Origin: Apostichopus japonicus
Lineage: Eukaryota > Echinodermata > Holothuroidea > Aspidochirotida > Stichopodidae
Direction: 5' to 3'
DNA length: 64,000 nucleotides
NCBI RefSeq assembly: GCF_037975245.1
Contig: NC_092583.1
Span: 8,889,764 to 8,953,763, forward strand
Shown: positions 26,201-56,774 of the stretch, one piece after another
Numbering within the stretch: position 1 is the stretch's first letter
Layout: each line of letters opens with the position of its first letter
Notes under the pieces: generated by a model
Told to the model about the DNA's origin: nothing
Databases searched by the model: none
The model's input: only the letters and a program-made list of their open reading frames with translations
Made by a program: the position numbers and the translations under genes

Positions 26201-28338
26201 AACCAGACGAGGCAACGGCTGATCCAGTCGAGGCAACGGCTGAACTAGTCAAAGCAATCGCTGAACCTTTCAAGGCGAAGGCTGAACTAGTGAAAGAAAC
26301 AGCTGAACCAGTCAAAGAAACTGTCAAGCCAATCAAAACAACGGCTGAACAAGTTAATGCAAAGTCTAAACCAGTCCAAGCAATGACTGAACTAGTCTTG
26401 ACCAAGCATACGCTAACTCCAGACAAGAATGTTGTTGTGAGGTGAGCAAAATGTTCTGAAAAATCTAGCTAAATGTTTGTAAGGATTTTCAAACTTACTT
26501 TTTGTTACTTGCCAAGTCAGCATTAACTTTCTCCGTTGTCTTAGTAAGGGTGTGGGGAGGGGTGGGTGGGGTTCTGCAATGGTGACAAATAATTAAAAAG
26601 CAATAAATAATGTTCTGCTTTACTTTATTTCACTCATCTCATTTTTTTCTAATTCTATTTCATCTGGTATACTTGATCTTGATGAGAAAGTAGAACACCT
26701 TCATAAACGTTGCATATAACAGCTTCTAATAATCTATTTTCATTCATTAGGAAAACAACAGCAGCAAAGCTACAGCATTTATTTCCAGAATGTGAGTTGC
26801 TATTGCAAAGTGATCTTCAGCATATTTTACATCCGACCACCAACAAACCGATAACTCTTGGCAAAGGAGCGTTTGGAGTAGTAAGGCTAATGAAAAACAT
26901 CAAAACTGGAAGGCTTTGTGCTGTGAAAACCTTTCAAAATCATCTTATGAATGCGAAAATATTCAAGGTTAGCAAAGCGAAAAAATTTAGTTGACCAAAC
27001 TTGATCTCATACGGTACGTCAGAGTTTTGTGGCGTGTTTTCTCTGACGTCACGATTATGACTTCAGTTTACGGCTTTATGGCTTTATTAATTAATTAATT
27101 AATTTTGTATATCAAATTGACAAAATATTATGGCATCGAAACTATCATGTCTTTGGTAACCAAGAAGGTGTAGGAAATCTTATCTTTGTAATAATTGTTC
27201 GTTATTACATATATAATCTGAAATGATATGTACTGCAAACGAATATCAAGAAAATCACTCATTTAAAAAAAAATAGTATTAGAAATAAATTATTCAATAT
27301 ACCAATAAACATTCAGTTTAATTGTGATGTGTCTGTTAATACTTGTAACAAAGATAATTTATAACAATAATTTTTGAAATGAATAAGATTTACGATCTCG
27401 GTAGGTTTAGTTTTTAAAATAAACCATACCATTCCACCTTTTCATAAGGGCCCACATTACTTTCTGAATGTTCAATTCTCATTTTTCCGCTGCAGGACAT
27501 CTCCATCAGTTATCGTAAATTGATAAATATGCATATTTAATAATTTGTGCGTTCCTTACAAATGCTAACAAAGTTCGAAAGCCAGTTTAGAAAAAATAAA
27601 TAAAATATGAAACGAATATCAAAGATTATTTTTGTCCGTATCTTCATCTTTTCTTTACTCACTGTGTAATAACTGATTCTCTTTTCCTTTGGACAGGACG
27701 CAAAGGTGGAGGTTCAGATGTTAACTAAACTACGCGGTTTGAAGTGCGTCCCAGAACTGTTCGGTATTGTTCCAGCAGAGGGGAACACCGGGGTTCCTTC
27801 TGTCGTTCAAGAATTTATCGGTGACCAAGACACTCTAATGACATGTACTATTAAAACCGCTATTCGCAAGAAGATCTTTTCTGCTGATATTATCGTTCGT
27901 GTTGCTCTGAGCATCGTTAAAGCCCTCATAGATGTTCAATCACGAGGAATTTTTCACTGTGACCTTAAACCTGACAATATAATGCTGATGCCTGAGCTTC
28001 AAGGAGGGCAAGATCCTCATATCAAAATCATCGATTTTGGAAGAGCAGTAAGCACGGCTAATAAACCAAAATACGAACATCTCACACCAGAGAGGCAAGG
28101 TGAGGTCCTCCAAAGGTCCGCCCACATCGCCCCGGAAGTAGTCCTAGGGTTATTGCCATACAGTGAAAATTCAGAAATGTATTCATTAGGTAAGATCTTC
28201 ATTAGAATGGCCGGAGACCGATCTAAATATTTGAAAAAGATTGGCAAAATGTGCATGCATGACGATTTTCGTCAGAGACCAACGATGAAGAAACTCAAGG
28301 AGGAACTGACGTCATATATAGGGAGGAAGCAATGCTAG
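23233..28338 (+). CDS. Protein kinase with repeat-rich N-terminus (5 exons)
   Basis: Exons 23233-23291, 24217-25441, 25867-26441, 26751-26967 and 27697-28338; all junction phases agree (2, 0, 2, 0), giving 905 aa plus TAG. Residues 20-428 are Ser/Arg/Lys-rich and probably disordered; 429-619 are a heptapeptide repeat built on 'ATAEPVK'. The kinase domain starts near 655: Gly loop LGKGAFGVV (656-664), Lys679 in CAVK, Glu697 as the likely helix-C Glu, HCDLKPDN at 779-786 (Cys where HRD has Arg), DFG at 805-807, APE at 837-839, and DDFRQRPT near the end. All catalytic residues needed for phosphotransfer are present, so activity is plausible. HCD instead of HRD suggests little dependence on activation-loop phosphorylation. 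The domain is Ser/Thr-type by its LKPDN motif; closest family unknown. A broken paralogue lies at 33.9-36.1 kb. Confidence 0.75.
23292..24216. other. Kinase gene intron 1
   Basis: It holds the 23-bp minisatellite. A 100-codon open frame at 23629-23931 has no splice support or recognisable domain and is not called. Confidence 0.5.
23391..23625. repeat. 23-bp minisatellite
   Basis: About ten consecutive units of roughly 23 bp around TGTTTACTGTATATTATA, diverging towards both ends; unit starts at 23392, 23415 and 23438. It lies in intron 1 of the kinase gene. Confidence 0.85.
24217..25441 (+). CDS. Kinase gene exon 2: disordered basic region
   Basis: 1,225 nt, acceptor TTTTATAG, donor proposed at AAG|GTATTC because it gives phase 0 to the repeat exon; the donor is weak and the frame stays open to 25516. 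Rich in Ser, Pro, Arg, Lys and Gln, with no fold recognised. The segment 'DVTLAHATALPKPRDVSHIP' is clearly related to the broken copy at 34020. Confidence 0.65.
25867..26441 (+). CDS. Kinase gene exon 3: ATAEPVK heptapeptide repeats
   Basis: 575 nt, acceptor CCTCCAG, donor GTGAG|GTGAGC, phase 0 to 2. The whole exon is open in one frame and consists of about twenty-five 21-nt units coding for variants of A-T-A-E-P-V-K. The middle (about 26045-26100) repeats the sequence that precedes and contains the exon's own acceptor, so an internal duplication copied the splice site into the coding region. A shorter version of the exon is at 34655-34815. Low complexity; probably a flexible linker. Confidence 0.7.
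26751..26967 (+). CDS. Kinase gene exon 4: N-lobe
   Basis: 217 nt, acceptor TTCATTAG, donor CAAG|GTTAGC, phase 2 to 0. It carries the glycine loop and catalytic lysine. A paralogous exon is at 35880-36108. Confidence 0.85.
26968..27696. other. Kinase gene intron 4
   Basis: AT-rich, with a short (TTAA)n run near 27088. No other feature seen. Confidence 0.6.
27697..28338 (+). CDS. Kinase gene exon 5: catalytic lobe and stop
   Basis: 642 nt, acceptor TTGGACAG, TAG at 28336-28338. HCDLKPDN, IDFGRA, IAPEVV and RQRPT are readable in order, all with kinase-typical spacing. Confidence 0.9.
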   Translation, partial: DAKVEVQMLTKLRGLKCVPELFGIVPAEGNTGVPSVVQEFIGDQDTLMTCTIKTAIRKKIFSADIIVRVALSIVKALIDVQSRGIFHCDLKPDNIMLMPELQGGQDPHIKIIDFGRAVSTANKPKYEHLTPERQGEVLQRSAHIAPEVVLGLLPYSENSEMYSLGKIFIRMAGDRSKYLKKIGKMCMHDDFRQRPTMKKLKEELTSYIGRKQC

Positions 28339-32162: not shown

Positions 32163-33960
32163 GTAGAAAAAAGGATCAGGAGGGACACTTAAGTCCCCAT
32201 CAAGGACCCTATAGAGAGAGAAAAAAAAATGAACACACAGACACTCAGACCCGATTACAATGCTTAAAGTGCTTGTCCAAAGCATTCTTAAACCCATTCA
32301 CACTACTTGCAAGTACAACTTTCTCAGGCAAACCATTCCACTCATTCACAACCCTATTAGAAAAAAAATTATGCCGAATATTAATCCTACTATGCGACTT
32401 TTGGAGTTTAAGACAATGATCTCTAGTACAACTACTGTTAGCAAACAAGAAAAAGTCGGTAAAGGATAAATTGTCGAAACCATTCACAATCTTGAAAACC
32501 TGGATCAAGTCCCCACGTAACCTCCTAAGCTCCAGTGTGGTGAGATTCAACAGTTGTAACCGCCTATAATAAGGAACCCTCTTTAAGGAACTAATCATCC
32601 TAGTAGCCCTCCTCTGGACCTTTTCAAGTACTTCCGTATCCTTAGCAAAGTAAGGGTTTCAAGCCTGCACAGCATACTCCAGATGAGGCCTAACCAACTG
32701 CTTATAAAGCCTAACTACGATGTCCTCTTTCAGAAAACTGAAGTTCCTCTTGATCATACCTAAAACCCTATTACCTCTTTTAGCAGCTTCAAGACAATGT
32801 TTAGAAGGTTGCAGAGATGAGTCAATGTAGATACCTAGGTCTCTTTCAACAGAGACCTCCTGTAACTCCACACCATTAAGATTGTATGTAAACTTTTGGT
32901 TACTACTACCAATATGCATTACCTCACATTTATCAATATTAAAAAGCATTTGCCACCCCTGAGACCAGGAAAAAATCTTATCCAAATCCGCTTGAAATTT
33001 CTCAGAATCGCTTTTGGAAGAGACCTCAGAATACAATTTGGTGTCATCAGCAAACTTCTTAGCTTTACACCAAATATCTCCGTCATGTCATTTATATAGG
33101 CAACAAACAACAAGGGACCTACCCTTGTGGAACCCCACTAGTAACGTTCTGCCAAGAAGAAGCACAGCCTTTAATTACCACCCTCTGTTCCCTATTACCA
33201 AGCCAATTCCCGATCCAAGACAGTAAATTCCCTATGACACCCATGCTCTTCAGCCTAAGTAAAAGACGCTGGTGGGGAACTTTATCAAAGGCATTCTGGA
33301 AATCCAGGAACACGACATCTACAGACCTCTGCCTATTTAGTGAACTTGCTACATCTTCCATAAACTCAAGGATATTAGTGAGACAAGACCTTTTTTGACA
33401 AAAGCCATGTTGAGACTCTCTGGTCAAAGACTGACTGCTGAAGTGACAGACCATAGACCTTTTAACAATAGACTCCATGACCTTACAAACTACACTAGTG
33501 AGACTAACGGGTCTATAATTACAGGGCTTAGACTTATCACCCTTCTTGAAAATTGGGGTAATATTAACACATCTCCAGTCCCTAGGAACATAACCTTCAT
33601 CCATAAATTTACTAAAAACCAACGAGAGTGGAACGCAGAAATGGTGTGCAAAAGTCTTCAACAAATACGGATGGATTGCATCCGGTCCAGAAGCTTTAGA
33701 AACATTTAGACGAAGCAGCTCCTTTAAGACAACCTCATTCGAAAATAAGACCGTATCCAGTTAAAGCCTATCACTGCCCCCCTGAAAATCTGGAATACTA
33801 CTCGTATCTTCCCTTGTGAAAACCGACACAAAATAGTTGTTCAAAAGATCTGCAAGATCCTGACTATCAGTTACTATATTATCAGCCTGTGGTGCCCTAA
33901 GAGAAACAATTGCATCTTTTACTTTCTGCTTTGACCTGACATAAGAAAAGAAAGTTCTTC
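32163..33960 (-). mobile_element. Defective CR1-type non-LTR retrotransposon (5' truncated)
   Basis: Minus-strand reverse transcriptase: 'SKASGPDAIHP', 'NYRPVSLTSVVCKVMES', 'VDVVFLDFQNAFDKVPHQRL', 'SGVPQG', the catalytic 'FADDTKL' (about 33025-33055), then the CR1 C-terminal part ('RDLGIYIDSSLQPSKH', 'KQLVRPHLEYAVQA'). Damage: frame breaks after SGVPQG and before FADDTKL, and a Trp-to-stop change (TGA) after YAVQA. The 3' end near 32163 has short repeats (AAACTAAACTGAACT on the minus strand), as in CR1/L2 tails. The endonuclease half is absent. It lies inside the degraded kinase paralogue. Confidence 0.85.
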
Positions 33961-35879: not shown

Positions 35880-36108
35880 GAAAACAACCGCTGTAAAGAA
35901 AACGCCAAAGCTACAACGTTTATTTCCAGAATGTGAGTTGTTATTGCAGAGTGATCTTCAGCATGGTTTACATCCAACCACTAACAAACCGATTACCCTT
36001 GGCAGAGGAGCGCATGGAGTAGTAACACTAATGAAAAGCATGAAAACTGGAAAGTTGTACGCGGTCAAAACCTTTCAAAATCATCTTAGGAATGCAAAAA
36101 TATTCAAG
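35880..36108 (+). pseudogene. Kinase N-lobe exon of the paralogue
   Basis: 229 nt, acceptor TCAATTTAG, donor CAAG|GTTAGC. Gly loop LGRGAHGVV and 'YAVKTFQNHL' preserved; four codons longer than its partner. No C-lobe exon found within the following 2 kb. Confidence 0.8.
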
Positions 36109-36480
36109 GTTAGCAAACCGCCATTAATTAAAAATTATAGATATGACGTACGCTTTAAATAAGAACGGTTTATGTCAATCAATAAACTAGTCAATGAACG
36201 ACTAATCCAAATATGGAAAAGATAACATAATTACATTTGTTTTGTCCAAGTTAGATAATAAGTTGTATAGCAGTTTGTAACTCAAAATCTTGGTTGATAA
36301 TAAGAACATCAACGTTGACCTTATACGTTCTCATAAGACTTAGTGAATCACAACTTCGTAACAATATAAATATATATATATATTGTCAGATTTAAAGCGC
36401 CAGGGGTGCACTCTGTACAATCATAACACTTGGGTAATACGCCCTTCATGACAGTTATTCAAAGCCAATTTATACGCTTT
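36109..36480. other. No gene recognised
   Basis: AT-rich, with a short TA run near 36365. Position of the missing catalytic exon of the kinase paralogue. Confidence 0.5.
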
Positions 36481-36620
36481 AACACACCAGTAGAATCACT
36501 GTGGTCGAGTGGTACGGACTTCGGTTCGTGACACGAAGATCCGGGGTTCGATTCCTACCTTCGCCTGATGAGTCCCAAAAGGACGAAACCGGTCGTGAAG
36601 TGGAATTTTTCTGGTGTGTT
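36481..36620 (+). mobile_element. Retrozyme/SINE-like unit: tRNA-like head plus hammerhead ribozyme
   Basis: 140-bp unit closed by a perfect inverted repeat, AACACACCAG (36481-36490) with CTGGTGTGTT (36611-36620). Inside are a pol III A box TGGTCGAGTGG (36502-36512) and a B box GGTTCGATTCC (36545-36555), both matching the tRNA consensus, followed by a complete hammerhead motif. A TA microsatellite begins at 36638. Pol III promoter plus ribozyme resembles the small ribozyme-bearing retroelements (retrozymes) of animals, but the closing inverted repeat and single copy are unusual. Confidence 0.75.
36559..36600 (+). ncRNA. Minimal type I hammerhead self-cleaving ribozyme
   Basis: Stem I CTTCGC (36559-36564) with GTGAAG (36595-36600), one G-U pair. 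Core CTGATGA (36565-36571). Stem II GTCC (36572-36575) with GGAC (36581-36584), loop CAAAA. Core GAA (36585-36587). Stem III is the self-complementary ACCGGT (36588-36593). C36594 gives the classic GUC cleavage triplet. All conserved core bases are present. A stem III this short and palindromic is typical of animal type I hammerheads that work best as dimers. Predicted cut between 36594 and 36595. Confidence 0.88.
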
Positions 36621-36637
36621 ATTCTTTATTGAATTAC

Positions 36638-36679
<42 letters not shown>
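36638..36679. repeat. (TA)n microsatellite
   Basis: TA run just after the hammerhead unit. Confidence 0.9.
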
Positions 36680-36734
36680 ATTACATTGAAATAGTAGTGA
36701 GTTGGAAATCCAGAACAGTGAAAAAACTTCCAGC

Positions 36735-36775
36735 CTCCACCGGGATTTGAACCCGTGCCATTCATTATTCTACAT
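36735..36775 (-). repeat. tRNA-like B-box fragment
   Basis: On the minus strand, GGGTTCAAATCCC in the context CACGGGTTCAAATCCCGGTG, a good T-arm. No A box or acceptor stem upstream, so this is a truncated tRNA-derived fragment, not a tRNA gene. Confidence 0.5.
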
Positions 36776-38181
36776 TGTCTTAAATTTCTGAAGGGGGAGG
36801 AGACACCCGTCCCCTCAACCCCCTCTCAGGCGATTGTTTGGCGTTTGCGTTCATCTCAAATCTGCGGATCACCCAACCCCCCCCCCCCCCAAATGTCAAA
36901 AAGAAATCTACGTCACTTTTAACCTTGGTCGCGATGCGTTCATTTCTACACGCGCAGCGTGGAAATGGTCTTGTTATAGATACAGGATGGGGAAACTTCG
37001 TTGTGAACTTTCCATAAACGGTGCCATGTGTATATGGTATTATGTTAGACAGGCTGCATTGGAACAGCAATGTGAAGGCAATAAACGTGTAGCCATATAG
37101 ACTAAGTATCATCAGCGTTACCCAACTATTTAAATATTTACTTTAAGTGAGAACAATAACGAAATTTTAACACAAAAACAGTTTTATTAGAATACAAAAT
37201 CAAATTCTTGGTGACATACATAGACTGTTTGACTTGAAGTGTTAGAATAAACAACCAGCTCGAGCTAAAAGGAAACTGTGGCTAGTCCAAGGTGCTACAT
37301 AACGTCAGTGTTGTCTACGAACTTTTAAAGTTAAACATTTAAGCAGTAGACTATATATATATATTTAAGGTTTTTCCTAAAAACCGGTATACTCTTGAAC
37401 AGGGCTTACCATGTTAATTTTATTTAGATGCTGGAATAGTGTTCCAATGCGAATGGAAATTAAGGTTGATCCATATAAGAACGTAGCTCATACAGGAAAT
37501 TCAGCATCCTTCGCATGTATGAGCACTGACACACACGATTAACCATATTTTGAACATATTTTCATCCACCTTACTTACTCCCGTCTGATTCCCTCAACCC
37601 CACTCCCTCCCCACCTATCCAAATAGTCCAATATACTGACTTATTTTGTCAGGTTTCTATTTTGAATAATATCGGGAAAATCGTAGAGTTTTCAATATAC
37701 CGCTATTATAGAGAAGACTATATGACCGTTTACCATACAAATCGGCCGCAATTAAATTAAAGACGCTATAACTGTATTTGCCATTTCCAGACTTATGTTG
37801 AACTGGTTAGAGAGACAAATTATAGTGGCACACTTACTCAATGTAAGTTAAATTGAGGGAGAGGGGGGGGGGTATCTCAGGTTATGTGATTATCTCGATG
37901 GTCTGTAGACTGTAGGGTCTGCGTCTTGTAGACAGGCAGATCCCCTGTATTGATTTTACGACCCCCCCCCCTGCTCCCTCCTCTCTTTTCAGTTTTTGGA
38001 ATTCGATGTATTTATTAAGTACGTCATAACATTCAAAATTACACTCAAATTGGATCAATAAACAAAAATGAAAATCTCACCGAACTGCTTTAAGTTCAAT
38101 ATTGACTCAACTATCACGCGATATGGTTATATCTAAAAGGTCAAGGGTTAGTGGGCGTAATTTATTATTTGATTCATTTGC
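36776..38181. other. Intergenic, no gene recognised
   Basis: G/C homopolymer tracts near 36878, 37862 and 37963. No splice-supported frame. Confidence 0.45.
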
Positions 38182-49989: not shown

Positions 49990-52900
49990 GTCGTGGTAAG
50001 AGGTTTATCTATGGGTCATATACTCTAATGAATATTTAGAAGGGTACCATAATGCATCTTTTCCGGTCCGAATAGTTCTTGACCAACTAAAATGACCACT
50101 ACTTCAGCAGTTTCTAAATTAATGTAACGGGACCTGAAAAAAATCACTCTAGGCCCTAATCAAGACTAGCACGCCTTGGACCACCTAACCAATGGGTCAT
50201 AGGAATTCTTAACAAATTGTAGAAGGATACCATAATGCGTCTTGCCCGGTCCAAAGCGTGCTTGACCAATTAAAATGACCACTAAATCAACAATTTTTTA
50301 AAATAAATGTAACAGGAACTGAAATAAAAACATTTGGGCCCTAATCAAAACCAGCACGCCTTGGACCACTCAACCAATGGGTCGTATGAACTCTAAAGTC
50401 ATTGTAGAAGGGTACCATAATGCGTCTTGCCCGGTCCAAAGAGTGCTTGACCAATTTAAATGACCACTAAATCATTACTTTTTTTCATGAGTGTAACGGG
50501 ACCACGAGAAAGCTTTGGGCCCTAATCCATGCAGCACGCCTTGGATCACCAAACCGATGGTTAACATGAATTTCAAGGACATTGTAGAAGGGTACCATAA
50601 TGCGTCGTGCCCGGTCCAAAGAGTGCTTGACCAATTAAACTGACCACGAAATCATCACTACGTTAATGTATGTAAATGGACCTGCAAAAATCTTTAGGCC
50701 CCAGTCAAGACCAGAACGCCTTGGACCAGCTAACCAATAGGCCATAGGAAGTCCAAGGACATTGTAGAAGGGTACCATATTGTGCCTTTCCCGGTCCAAA
50801 GAGTGCTTGACCAATTAAAATGACCACTAAATTATTACTTCTTCTATGACTGAAACGGGACCACGAGAAAGCTTTGGGCCCTAATCCATGCAGCACGCCT
50901 TGGACCACCCAACCAATGGGTCATGTGAACGCTAATGACATTGTAGAGGGGTCCCATAATGCGCCTTGCCCGGTCCAAAGAGTGCTTGACCAATTAAACA
51001 GACCACTAAATCATCACTGCGTTAATGTATGTAAATGGTCTTGCAAAAACATTTAGGCCCCAGTCAAAACCAGCACGACTTAGACCACCCAATCATTGGG
51101 TCATAGGAAGTCCAAGGACATTGTAGAAGGGTACCATAATGCGTCTTGCCCGGTCCAAAGAGTGCTTGACCAATTAAACTGACCACGAAATCATCACTAC
51201 GTTAATGTATGTAAATGGACCTGCAAAAATCTTTAGGCCCCAGTCAAGACCAGAACGCCTTGGACCAGCTAACCAATAGGCCATAGGAAGTCCAAGGACA
51301 TTGTAGAAGGGTACCATATTGTGTCTTTCCCGGTCCAAAGAGTGCTTGACCAATTAAAATGACCACTAAATTATTACTTCTTCTATGACTGAAACGGGAC
51401 CACGAGAAAGCTTTGGGCCCTAATCCATGCAGCACGCCTTGGACCATCCAACCAATGGGTCATATGAGCGCTAGTGACAATGTAGAAGGGATCCATAATG
51501 CGCCTTGCCCTGTCCAAAGGATGCTTGACCAATTAAACTGACCACTTAATCATCACTACCTTAATGTATGTAAATGGACCTGCAAAAATCTTTAGGCCCC
51601 AGTCAAGACCAGCACGCCTTGGACCACCTAACCAATGGTTCATAGGAAATCCAAGGACATTGTAGAAGGGTACCATAATGCGTCTTGCCCGGGCCAAAGA
51701 GTGCTTGACCAAATTAAATGACCACTAAATAATTACTTCTTCAATGACTGAAATGGGACCACGAAAAAGCTTTGGGACCTCATCCATGCAGCACGCCTTG
51801 GACCACCCAACCAATGGGTCCTATGAACGCTCATGACAATGTAGAAAGGTTCCATAATGCGTCGTGCCCGGGCCAAAGAGTGCTTGACCAATTAAAATGA
51901 CCATTAAATCATTACTTTTTTAATGAGTGAAACGGGACCACGAAAAAGCTTTTGGGCCTGATCCATGCAGCACGCCTTGGATCACCAAACCAATGGTTAA
52001 CTTGAACTCTAAGGACATTGTAGAAGAGTACCATAATGCGTCGTGTACGGTCCAAAGAGTGCTTGACCAATTAAAATGACCATTAAATCATTACTTCTTG
52101 AATGAGTGAAACGGGACCACGAAAAAGCTTTGGGCCCTAATCCATGCAGCACGCCTTGCACCACCTAACCAATGGGTAACATTAACTCTAAGGACATTAT
52201 GGAAGAGTACCATAATGCGTCTTGCCCGGTCCAAAGAGTGCTTAAACAATTAAAATTACCACTAAATCATTACTTCTTCAATTAGTGTAACGGGACCACG
52301 AAAAAGCTTTGGACCCTAATCCATGCAGCATGCCTTGGACCACCTAACTAATCGGTAACATTAACTATTAGGACATTGTAGATGAGAACCATAATGCGTC
52401 TTGCCCGGTCCAAAGAGTGCTTGACCAATTTAAATCACCTTTAAATCATTACTTCTTTAATCAGTGAAACGGGACCACGAAAAAGCTTTGGGCCCTAATC
52501 CATGCAGCACGCCTTGGATCACCAAACCGATAATTAACATGAACTCTAAGGACATTAAAGAAGAGTACCATAATGCGTCTTGCCCGGTCCAAAGAGTGCG
52601 TGACCAATTTAAATGACCACTAAATCATTACTTCTTCAATGAGTGTAACGGGACCACGAAAAAGCATTTGGCCCTAATCCATGCAGCACGCCTTGGATCA
52701 CCAAACCGATGGTTAACATGAACTCTAAGGACATTGTAGAAGAGTACCATAATGCGTCTTGCCCGGTCCAAAGAGTGCGTGACCAATTTAAATGACCACT
52801 AAATCCTTACTTCTTCAATGAGTGTAACGGGACCACGAAAAAGCATTTGGCCCTAATCCATGCAGCACGCCTTGGATCACCAAACCGATGGTTAACATGA

Positions 52901-53270
52901 ACTCTAAGGACATTGTAGAAGGATACCATGATGCGTCTTGCCCGGTCCAAAGAGTGCTTGACCAATTAAAATGTCCACTATATCAACAATTTTTAAAATA
53001 AATGTAACAGGAACTGAAATAAAACATTTGGGCCCTAATCAAAACCAGCACGCCTTGGACCACCCAACCAATAGGTCATAAGAAGTCAAAGGACATTGTA
53101 GAAGGGTACCATAATGCGTCTTGCCCGGTCCAAAGAGTGCTTGACCAACTTAAATGACCACTTAATAATTACTTCTTCAATTAGTGTAACGGGACCACGA
53201 AAATAATCACTTTAGGCACTTATCAAGGCTAGCACGCCTTGGACCACCCAACCATTGGGTCATATGAATT
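49990..53270. repeat. ~180-bp satellite, 18 units, inside the MULE
   Basis: Each unit carries 'GGTACCATAATGCGTCTTGC', 'CCGGTCCAAAGAGTGCTTGA' and 'GCAGCACGCCTTGGA'. The AGTGCTTGACC box recurs at about 50094, 50265, 50444, 50622, 50801, 50980, 51159, 51339 and onwards to 53140, a step of 178-180 bp. Blocks 50581-51119 and 51120-51658 are near-identical three-unit repeats; units around 52560 and 52740 are also near-identical neighbours. Confidence 0.95.
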
Positions 53271-53784
53271 CTTATTCATGGCCGCATGTCGGGACTTAGC
53301 TAAGGTCTGATGATTGGGGGGGGGGGTGTAGTGGCTGAAATTCCAACTGGATGGGTTTTGGAGCCGGAAAATTCCGACTGCTGCCTTGTACCCCCCCCCC
53401 CCTCCCCCAGCACTACTCGTCAACGATACGGTCATTGTCAGTCAGACACCCTATCTTTCGCGACTGCTTTTTTGTTCCGAACTTTTTTTCGGTACTGTTG
53501 TACCCCTTGCCCTCACTTCACAAACTTATAATCACTCTGGTTAAGCGAGTAAGCAACTGAGTATAAGTTATCTGCTTGATAGGCTACATAGACTACTAAC
53601 TACAAAAGCTAACAAAGAGGAAAACAACAAACTTTCAACAAGTTATATTCGACGACATAGTGAAATTACCCCAAAATGCAGTGCTTTATCCTAGCACGCT
53701 TAATATTATTTTCTTGGGGGGGGGGGGGAGGGGGTGAGACTATTTATCACTCACATGAAAAAGGATTTGGAATTTGGAGCATTT

Positions 53785-55770: not shown

Positions 55771-56774
55771 GCACTGTCATCAAAGCTCAACTGAAGCTTA
55801 TAACCGGACAAACAATCAAAGTAATGAACAATCCCCTAGGCCTACCATGCATTAATGGCACATGCAGTAACGTTCAAACAAGGAACGAAGAAAATTGTGA
55901 CTATTTCCCATTTTCCAGAAAACTTCTAGGAAACATCCTGAATGAATCGCATGACACTCATTAAAGAAGTAATAATTTAGTGGTCATTTAAATTGGTCAA
56001 GTACTCTTTGGACCGCGCAAGACGCATTATGGTACTCTTCTACAATGTCCTTAGAGTTCATGTTAATCATCGGTTTGGTGATCCAAGGCGTGCTGCGTGG
56101 ATTAGGGCCCAAAGCTTTTTCATGGTCCCGTTACACTCATTAAAGCAGTAATGATTTAGTGGTCATTTAAATTGGTCAAGCACTCTTTGGACCGGGCAAG
56201 ACGCATTATGGTACCCTTCTACAATGTCTTTAGAGTTCCGATGATTCATTAGTTGGGTGGTCCAAGGCGTTCTAGTCGTGATTAGGGCCTAAAGTGATTT
56301 TTTTCAGGTCCCGTTACATTAATTTAAGAACTGATGAAGTAGTGGTCAGTTTAGTTGGTGAAGAACTATTTGGACCGGACAAGATGCATTATGGTACCAT
56401 TGTTAATAGTCATTAGAGTATATGACCCATAGATAAACCTCTTACCACGACCAAATGTTGAACATTTTGTAAGAAAGCTTTTGTCATGCCAGAGGTGTTA
56501 CGTCGATACCATCGTAGAATACGTAACTGAATAGGTAGCAGTTTCTCATTCGCGAATGTCGAACGAGGAACGGGGAATAAGTATTTACCTTCACACCGGT
56601 GGTTTACTTTCATAATAAAGATGGCCATAGCTATGGGGGCCTTGATATCGTGATATGCATGTATGGTATTGGCTGTGCCTCGTGTACTACATAAAACGTT
56701 CCTTGGAAACGTGCCAAAAAAAAGTTTAACCAACAGGTGTTAGACAGGGGAAGCGCTCACAGTTGTTTGGCAAG

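Follow-up and report, generated by a model that had tools for sequence, protein, structure and literature searches.

A 64,000-nucleotide stretch of the Apostichopus japonicus genome (C23:8889764-8953763; hereafter the window) carries a partial copy of what is probably a non-autonomous animal retrozyme mobilised by Penelope-like elements (PLEs), in which a head with A and B boxes is fused to a type I hammerhead ribozyme of minimal form. The monomer is 341 nt long, and the copy (36382..36644, plus strand) aligns to it by BLAST over 264 nt: it starts at monomer position 128, crosses the cleavage junction (341/1) and stops at position 50, with 94% identity to the natural monomer of locus L024. As it is shorter than one unit and has a single cleavage site, it would not be expected to yield a circle on its own. 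The initial annotation had taken a segment of 140 bp (36481..36620) for the whole element and suggested that it was a minimal retroelement monomer. A hammerhead retroelement that could yield circular RNA is indeed present, but its monomer measures 341 bp and is circularly permuted.

A type I hammerhead with a minimal stem III

The ribozyme was recognised by the Rfam type I model RF00163 at 36559..36600 on the plus strand (38.8 bits against a cut-off of 34; E 2.8e-6 in a scan of the whole window), within the segment for which the initial annotation had described it, and this was the sole Rfam match in the window to reach the cut-off of its family; the HH9 model gave 40 bits, below its cut-off of 52. 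In the RF00163 alignment the predicted self-cleavage junction falls at 36594..36595, as had also been proposed, with the GUC triplet ending at 36594. As in animal non-LTR retrozymes, type I hammerheads over the Rfam cut-off were found both in the window and elsewhere in the genome.

Stem III consists of the motif ACCGGU (36588..36593, plus strand), that is, 2 bp closed by a 2-nt loop. This motif is palindromic, so two ribozymes could form a common stem III of 6 bp. In the dimeric hammerheads of newts and the axolotl a very short stem III favours cleavage as a dimer; the sea-cucumber stem is similarly short, although the phylum differs and it is from ACCGGU alone that we infer dimer activity here. 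A need for dimers has been described for animal retrozyme hammerheads (PMC7229834, in part; this mark denotes papers cited from extracts of their text). Taken together with PMC7761336 (in part), the palindrome suggests that ribozymes of the type found in the window could be used as dimers.

The monomer belongs to a dispersed and recently mobile family

The length of the monomer was given by the spacing of the two cleavage sites in L024, and the DNA search returned neighbouring tandem matches exactly 341 bp apart at C10:13500948/13501289 and C14:10469409/10469750; in L038 the two cleavage sites are 327 bp apart. Searching the 671.6-Mb assembly (35 contigs) with RF00163 gave at least 59 matches, at least 50 of them over the cut-off (74 of 66307 candidates scored), and the DNA search gave at least 48 (40 of 1189 candidates scored). 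The absence of other genomic copies had been named at the outset among the grounds for abandoning the idea of a retroelement; there are many, some of them in tandem. All of the RF00163 places analysed (58 of 59, C12:20798786 being left out) belong to one family, whose homology passes both limits of the 140-bp segment and shows circular permutation. In this sampling each copy was reached by its hammerhead or by sequence flanking it. Among the DNA matches, the first 40, including the window's own, showed 97-100% identity over 176-180 nt, and the copy at C17:9062140 was identical to that in the window over 180 nt, which argues that the family has moved recently. With dispersed and tandem units of 341 nt and a GC content of 41% (L024 unit), it falls within the range of animal non-LTR retrozymes (170-400 nt, GC under 50%). 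A monomer of this size would not accommodate the reverse transcriptase (RT) and GIY-YIG frame of a PLE, and the family is read as non-autonomous.

Some of the loci, few in number, are truncated or of greater age, and L102 has a complex 5' part. L042 and L043 represent an older branch; they are diverged (∼77% identity), span one whole unit in permuted form (276->272) and lack (TA)n at their borders. The insertion in the window itself has been duplicated, in that L104 (C23:9141210-9141910), about 215 kb away, is a segmental duplicate of window positions 36100-36800 and shares its flanks. The hammerhead core of L104 is GACA where the window has GAAA, and the insertion therefore predates the duplication.

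The head-to-tail arrangement of some copies would be accounted for by a satellite or tandem repeat that grows by recombination with no RNA step. This explanation deserves hardly any weight, as the copies are spread across many contigs, and a large number of them fall short of a full monomer and abut (TA)n at defined positions.

The inverted repeat lies inside the monomer

The 140-bp segment had been delimited by a 10-bp inverted repeat, the left arm of which (AACACACCAG, 36481-36490, plus strand) pairs with the right arm (CTGGTGTGTT, 36611-36620, plus strand). The repeat is real, the right arm being the exact complement of the left, but it sits within the 341-nt monomer and does not mark its ends. 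If it did, the element might be read as a DNA transposon or MITE flanked by TA, and the exact arms and the TA adjoining the repeat would suit that reading. It was rejected because homology extends past both arms in many copies; in addition, 5' ends vary and some copies are tandem or 5' truncated, and we regard its probability as practically nil.

Arms of 10 bp separated by a 100-130-nt loop occurred 22 times in the real, repeat-rich window, against a mean of 3.7 per shuffled window (30 shuffles, arms of pure A/T left out), and the inverted repeat alone is no more than chance predicts for the sequence of the window. Folded as a circle, the L024 unit reached -95.6 kcal/mol compared with -79.7 +- 5.3 for 60 dinucleotide shuffles (z -3.0), and in this predicted fold the arms pair and prolong stem I of the hammerhead into a rod. 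Among 26 aligned copies the arms were mostly retained, the outermost pair was a C-T mismatch in 12, and no pair had changes on both sides that would amount to covariation. The stem is therefore plausible and has been kept by descent, its pairing being predicted rather than proven. In a circular RNA the repeat would lengthen stem I and so help to keep the circle in a rod-like fold.

A and B boxes precede the ribozyme

An A box (TGGTCGAGTGG, 36502-36512) and a B box (GGTTCGATTCC, 36545-36555), both on the plus strand, lie ahead of the ribozyme at pol III spacing, as in tRNA-derived SINEs, and are present as the initial annotation had described them. The combined A..B pattern occurred once in the window, on the plus strand only, and never in 200 dinucleotide shuffles searched on both strands, in which the B box on its own was found nine times. 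It was recognisable at 36 of 65 hammerhead places, a count in which 5' truncated places are included. In predicted folds the 3' part of the B box also serves stem I of the hammerhead, as its outer 5' strand. The description of the head as tRNA-like holds for the boxes, but not for recognition by tRNA models: ARAGORN reported no tRNA anywhere in the window, and the tRNA covariance model RF00005 did not match the head, whether in the window (searched to E 1) or among 16 copies (searched to E 0.5), where its three hits lay elsewhere in L001 and L028, off the head.

The boxes may drive pol III transcription of the retrozyme, with a possible start region at TAGAATCAC (36491..36499, plus strand); six copies (L003, L014, L031, L034, L048 and L057, judged by eye) start at monomer position 228-238, at or just before this sequence. 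A possible terminator, a T5 run, is found at 36606..36610 on the plus strand, 12 nt past the cut, and 57 of the 65 hammerhead places have a run of T4 or longer in the 22 nt that follow the cut. Such a run would usually halt ordinary pol III transcripts 12-16 nt past the cut, before both of the reverse-transcription start sites proposed below, so that production of the template would call for read-through or another polymerase. Of the steps considered here, pol III transcription from these boxes is the weakest and least certain.

Copies end in (TA)n at two sites

In the window the copy is bordered by (TA)n on its 5' side (36370..36383, from the sequence) and runs on its 3' side into a (TA)n microsatellite (36638..36679, TRF). 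To define the 3' ends across the family, the distance from the cut to the first (TA)5+ run was scored for 53 hammerhead places, comprising the matches to the hammerhead-core pattern in L001-L057 and the window; loci lacking the pattern add nothing to this number. Loci included twice (L006, L007, L058) and segmental duplicates recognised by eye from common flanks (L017, L018, L033, L043, L053) had been dropped, and the places are still partly dependent, since three in L035 have common flanks and L024, L028 and L052 each give more than one unit. The run began 36-52 nt past the cut in 22 places and 73-92 nt past it in 16, whereas only one place fell between these classes (53-72 nt). With three places under 36 nt, three at 93-260 nt and eight with no (TA)5+ within 260 nt, 15 of the 53 lie outside both classes. 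Runs of (TA)5+ make up 1.0% of the bases of the window. The window copy uses the short site, TTACTATATAT (36634..36644, plus strand), which the two-site pattern of the 53 places leads us to propose as a start of reverse transcription.

An AT-rich target and two alternative 3' ends 30-40 nt apart, the longer adding an optional tail, are what would be looked for in the cargo of a PLE, and the retrozyme has both. In the anole PLE, reverse transcription begins at two adjacent internal sites, one of which lies 85-92 nt past the hammerhead cut (our arithmetic, 111-118 minus 26) and the other about 50 nt past it, as judged from a tail of 30-40 nt; AT-rich DNA is preferred by the enzyme, which extends each of the two strands (PMC11167929). 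In rotifer PLEs one of the two inverted pLTRs may or may not carry the tail, and a preference for simple AT-rich targets is reported (PMC3846280, in part).

PLEs of the same genome end in the same way

A search of the genome for the GIY-YIG family gave 37 matches, of which 30 were taken as loci, and 12 longer regions were added. Frames with both RVT_1 and GIY-YIG were present in L089, L090 and L091, and GIY-YIG in L092. Of the 30 loci, 22 carry the motif ..CCCGAAAC(A/G)T(C/T), at 28 places in all, and the 12 regions yielded no more. It mostly reads AAAGGGTTTATACCCGAAACGTC^GTG, a sequence that we read as the probable 3' half of a decayed hammerhead. This half was all that could be recognised in the PLE family examined; a script pattern for the complete hammerhead found none on either strand of the 30 loci and 12 regions. 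When the ends were counted on both strands by the (TA)5+ criterion used for the retrozyme, with duplicates in genome coordinates removed, the run started 36-52 nt past the motif in 12 of the 28 places, 53-72 nt in one and 73-92 nt in 13; the two places with no (TA)5+ include one (L072) that continues within a tandem copy. A second PLE family (L090, L092) ends in (TA)n too, and in L107 the retrozyme adjoins, by eye, the (TA)n end of a PLE of this second type.

The tails of the retrozyme and of the PLE, compared for one pair, were not significantly similar (519 of 2000 shuffles reached the score in local and 240 of 2000 in global alignment), and thus the family examined may not be the helper. 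A separate observation is that the 3' region of a C20 PLE of another family (L060/L092) contains CTTGCCTATAAAG, 13/13 identical to retrozyme positions 96-108, with an E of 2.7-3.4 that could be due to chance.

These ends bear on the suggestion that the family is an ordinary tRNA-derived SINE with a (TA)n tail, moved by a LINE through target-primed reverse transcription at the 3' end, with the hammerhead as a passenger. The A and B boxes, the 5' truncated copies and the LINE-type RT frames in the window (32659-33760) would all be in keeping with it. It does not readily explain why a circularly permuted monomer should have two internal 3' ends separated by about 37 nt, why there are tandem copies, or why the long tail of the fold-backs sits on one arm (see below), and the PLEs of this genome show the same end pattern, the ends compared being those of the retrozyme and of the PLEs, not of LINEs. 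We consider this origin improbable, and retain mobilisation by PLEs as the better account.

Head-to-head fold-backs often pair a short with a long end

Copies joined head to head were found in 18 of 57 non-redundant retrozyme loci. In ten of these both outer ends lie at the two sites (nine identified by script and L103 added separately after its minus arm had been split by BLAST), and in eight of the ten a short end is paired with a long one: L019, L028, L039, L044, L052, L101, L105, and L103, which has long with short. This is the arrangement looked for in PLE cargo, copies inverted head to head of which one arm carries the tail. The two exceptions are L015, short/short with no (TA)n, and L107, long/long. 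One arm ends elsewhere than at the two sites in seven further fold-backs, and L030, with ends at 45 and 58, is near short/short and has no (TA)n. Fold-backs of the PLEs, paired by eye, were short/long in seven of seven cases (L066, L068, L069, L070, L084, L086 and the C13 cluster of L089), or in six when L070 is left out, since it resembles L069 and is likely to be its duplicate.

Tandem units and the possibility of a circular template

The anatomy described above can be arranged into a scheme of mobilisation. Tandem copies would be transcribed, and the hammerheads would cut the transcript into 341-nt units that would close into circles. A PLE protein would then open a (TA)n site and start cDNA inside the RNA, at about 45 or about 80-87 nt past the cut, positions that match the two observed classes of 3' end. 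Both DNA strands would often be extended, giving the head-to-head fold-backs seen in the genome with the longer tail on one arm, and cDNA synthesis on a circle could run for more than one round and so generate the tandem insertions that are observed. We read the 341-base element as a self-cleaving RNA that is probably circular, the predicted circular fold of the L024 unit being in favour of a circle. The fullest form of the scheme, in which a retroelement of circular RNA, equipped with a pol III promoter of its own, hijacks a Penelope-type RT, is copied by rolling circle and is inserted from both strands of (TA)n, in effect as a SINE of a PLE, we offer tentatively, at somewhat short of an even chance.

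A locus that bears on the circle is L103, in which a plus arm is joined to a minus arm about 2.5 units long. Two complete units on the minus arm and one on the plus arm agree at 153/153 positions, and a fourth matches at 144/153 over a stretch that crosses the fold-back junction. Three variants, one present in four units and two in three, occur in no other locus analysed. That variants are common to the units and to both arms suggests rolling-circle reverse transcription; one RNA circle copied more than once would be the simplest source of such identity and private variants, and a fresh clonal array also fits. Elsewhere, the arms of L101 (81-41, and 50 round to 90) together make up about one turn, and L051 (48->50) and L101 are single cases that would fit one full turn; by eye, there was no pile-up of copy lengths at one turn of the circle.

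Tandem copies could instead arise from linear multimeric transcripts of genomic arrays, the PLE machinery copying uncleaved RNA and no circle being formed. Multimeric copies are present in the genome to supply such transcripts, and mutation of the anole PLE hammerhead left insertion unchanged in vitro (PMC11167929). Set against this are the identical units on both arms of L103 with their three private variants, which a just-made clonal array could match. We think it rather unlikely that linear multimers are the template, and continue to favour a circle, with the reservation expressed above.

Relation to known elements

The initial annotation did not recognise the arrangement of a single unit with pairing ends; the union of a tRNA-derived pol III head with a hammerhead has a precedent in Schistosoma Sm-alpha (PMC2770079, in part). 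Animal retrozymes and this union of tRNA and hammerhead are therefore already known; what is new here is the combination of a Penelope signature with A and B boxes within one retrozyme, and the Penelope-type integration signature is a stronger point than the union of promoter and hammerhead. Among the matches listed from the open-licence PMC literature, no title or abstract concerned an echinoderm retrozyme or a retrozyme tied to PLE tails.

The sea-cucumber family resembles animal non-LTR retrozymes in its type I hammerhead, its non-coding unit within 170-400 nt and under 50% GC, its tandem and dispersed copies and a weak stem III like that of dimer-needing forms (PMC7229834, PMC7761336, both in part), but has A and B boxes and an end signature that points to a helper (compare PMC7761336, in part). 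With Sm-alpha and Sj-alpha it has in common a SINE head and a type I hammerhead; in Schistosoma the representative is 335 bp long, its head is tRNA-related and Sm-alpha-like copies are predicted as tRNA-Gln genes or pseudogenes, whereas the sea-cucumber head is unmatched by the tRNA model, and the extracts of those descriptions mention neither a two-site (TA)n tail nor fold-backs (PMC2770079, PMC8490949, both in part). The features held in common with PLEs are the hammerhead, two internal RT start sites 30-40 nt apart, AT-rich targets, and copies in tandem or head to head, one arm of the latter bearing the tail (PMC11167929; PMC3846280, in part); unlike them, the retrozyme lacks any frame for an RT or endonuclease, and the similarity of its tail to that of the PLE compared was not significant.

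Animal retrozymes seem to be without promoters, and their helper could not be deduced, according to PMC7761336 (in part), which leaves as questions the promoter of transcription and the autonomous element that moves them; LINEs or PLEs have been named as possible helpers (PMC11722881, in part). For the mover, the anatomy of the insertions offers a candidate answer that is directly testable, and for the promoter the A and B boxes are a candidate only. The family would also offer natural insertions in which the use of circular templates and two-strand priming by PLEs could be read from DNA.

Surroundings of the copy in the window

Upstream of the copy is a putative kinase-like exon (35880..36108, plus strand; translation GRGAHGVV...YAVKTF), and the copy probably lies in the intron that follows it, on the same strand. 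A near copy of part of this exon is found at 26859-26979 and a further protein kinase exon at 27673-28338, which suggests a tandem cluster of kinase genes. The LINE-type RT fragments lie about 3 kb upstream of the copy on the minus strand, with one match to RVT_1 and a second under the cut-off. A different tRNA-like repeat, with a B box of the GGTTCAAATCCCGG type, adjoins the copy at 36690-36770 on the minus strand, and similar sequence, by eye, flanks L025 and L034. A 179-bp tandem repeat occupies 50011-53272 with 18 copies, and a second block of about 2.5 copies (55954-56398) has, by eye, the reverse complement of this repeat as its unit.
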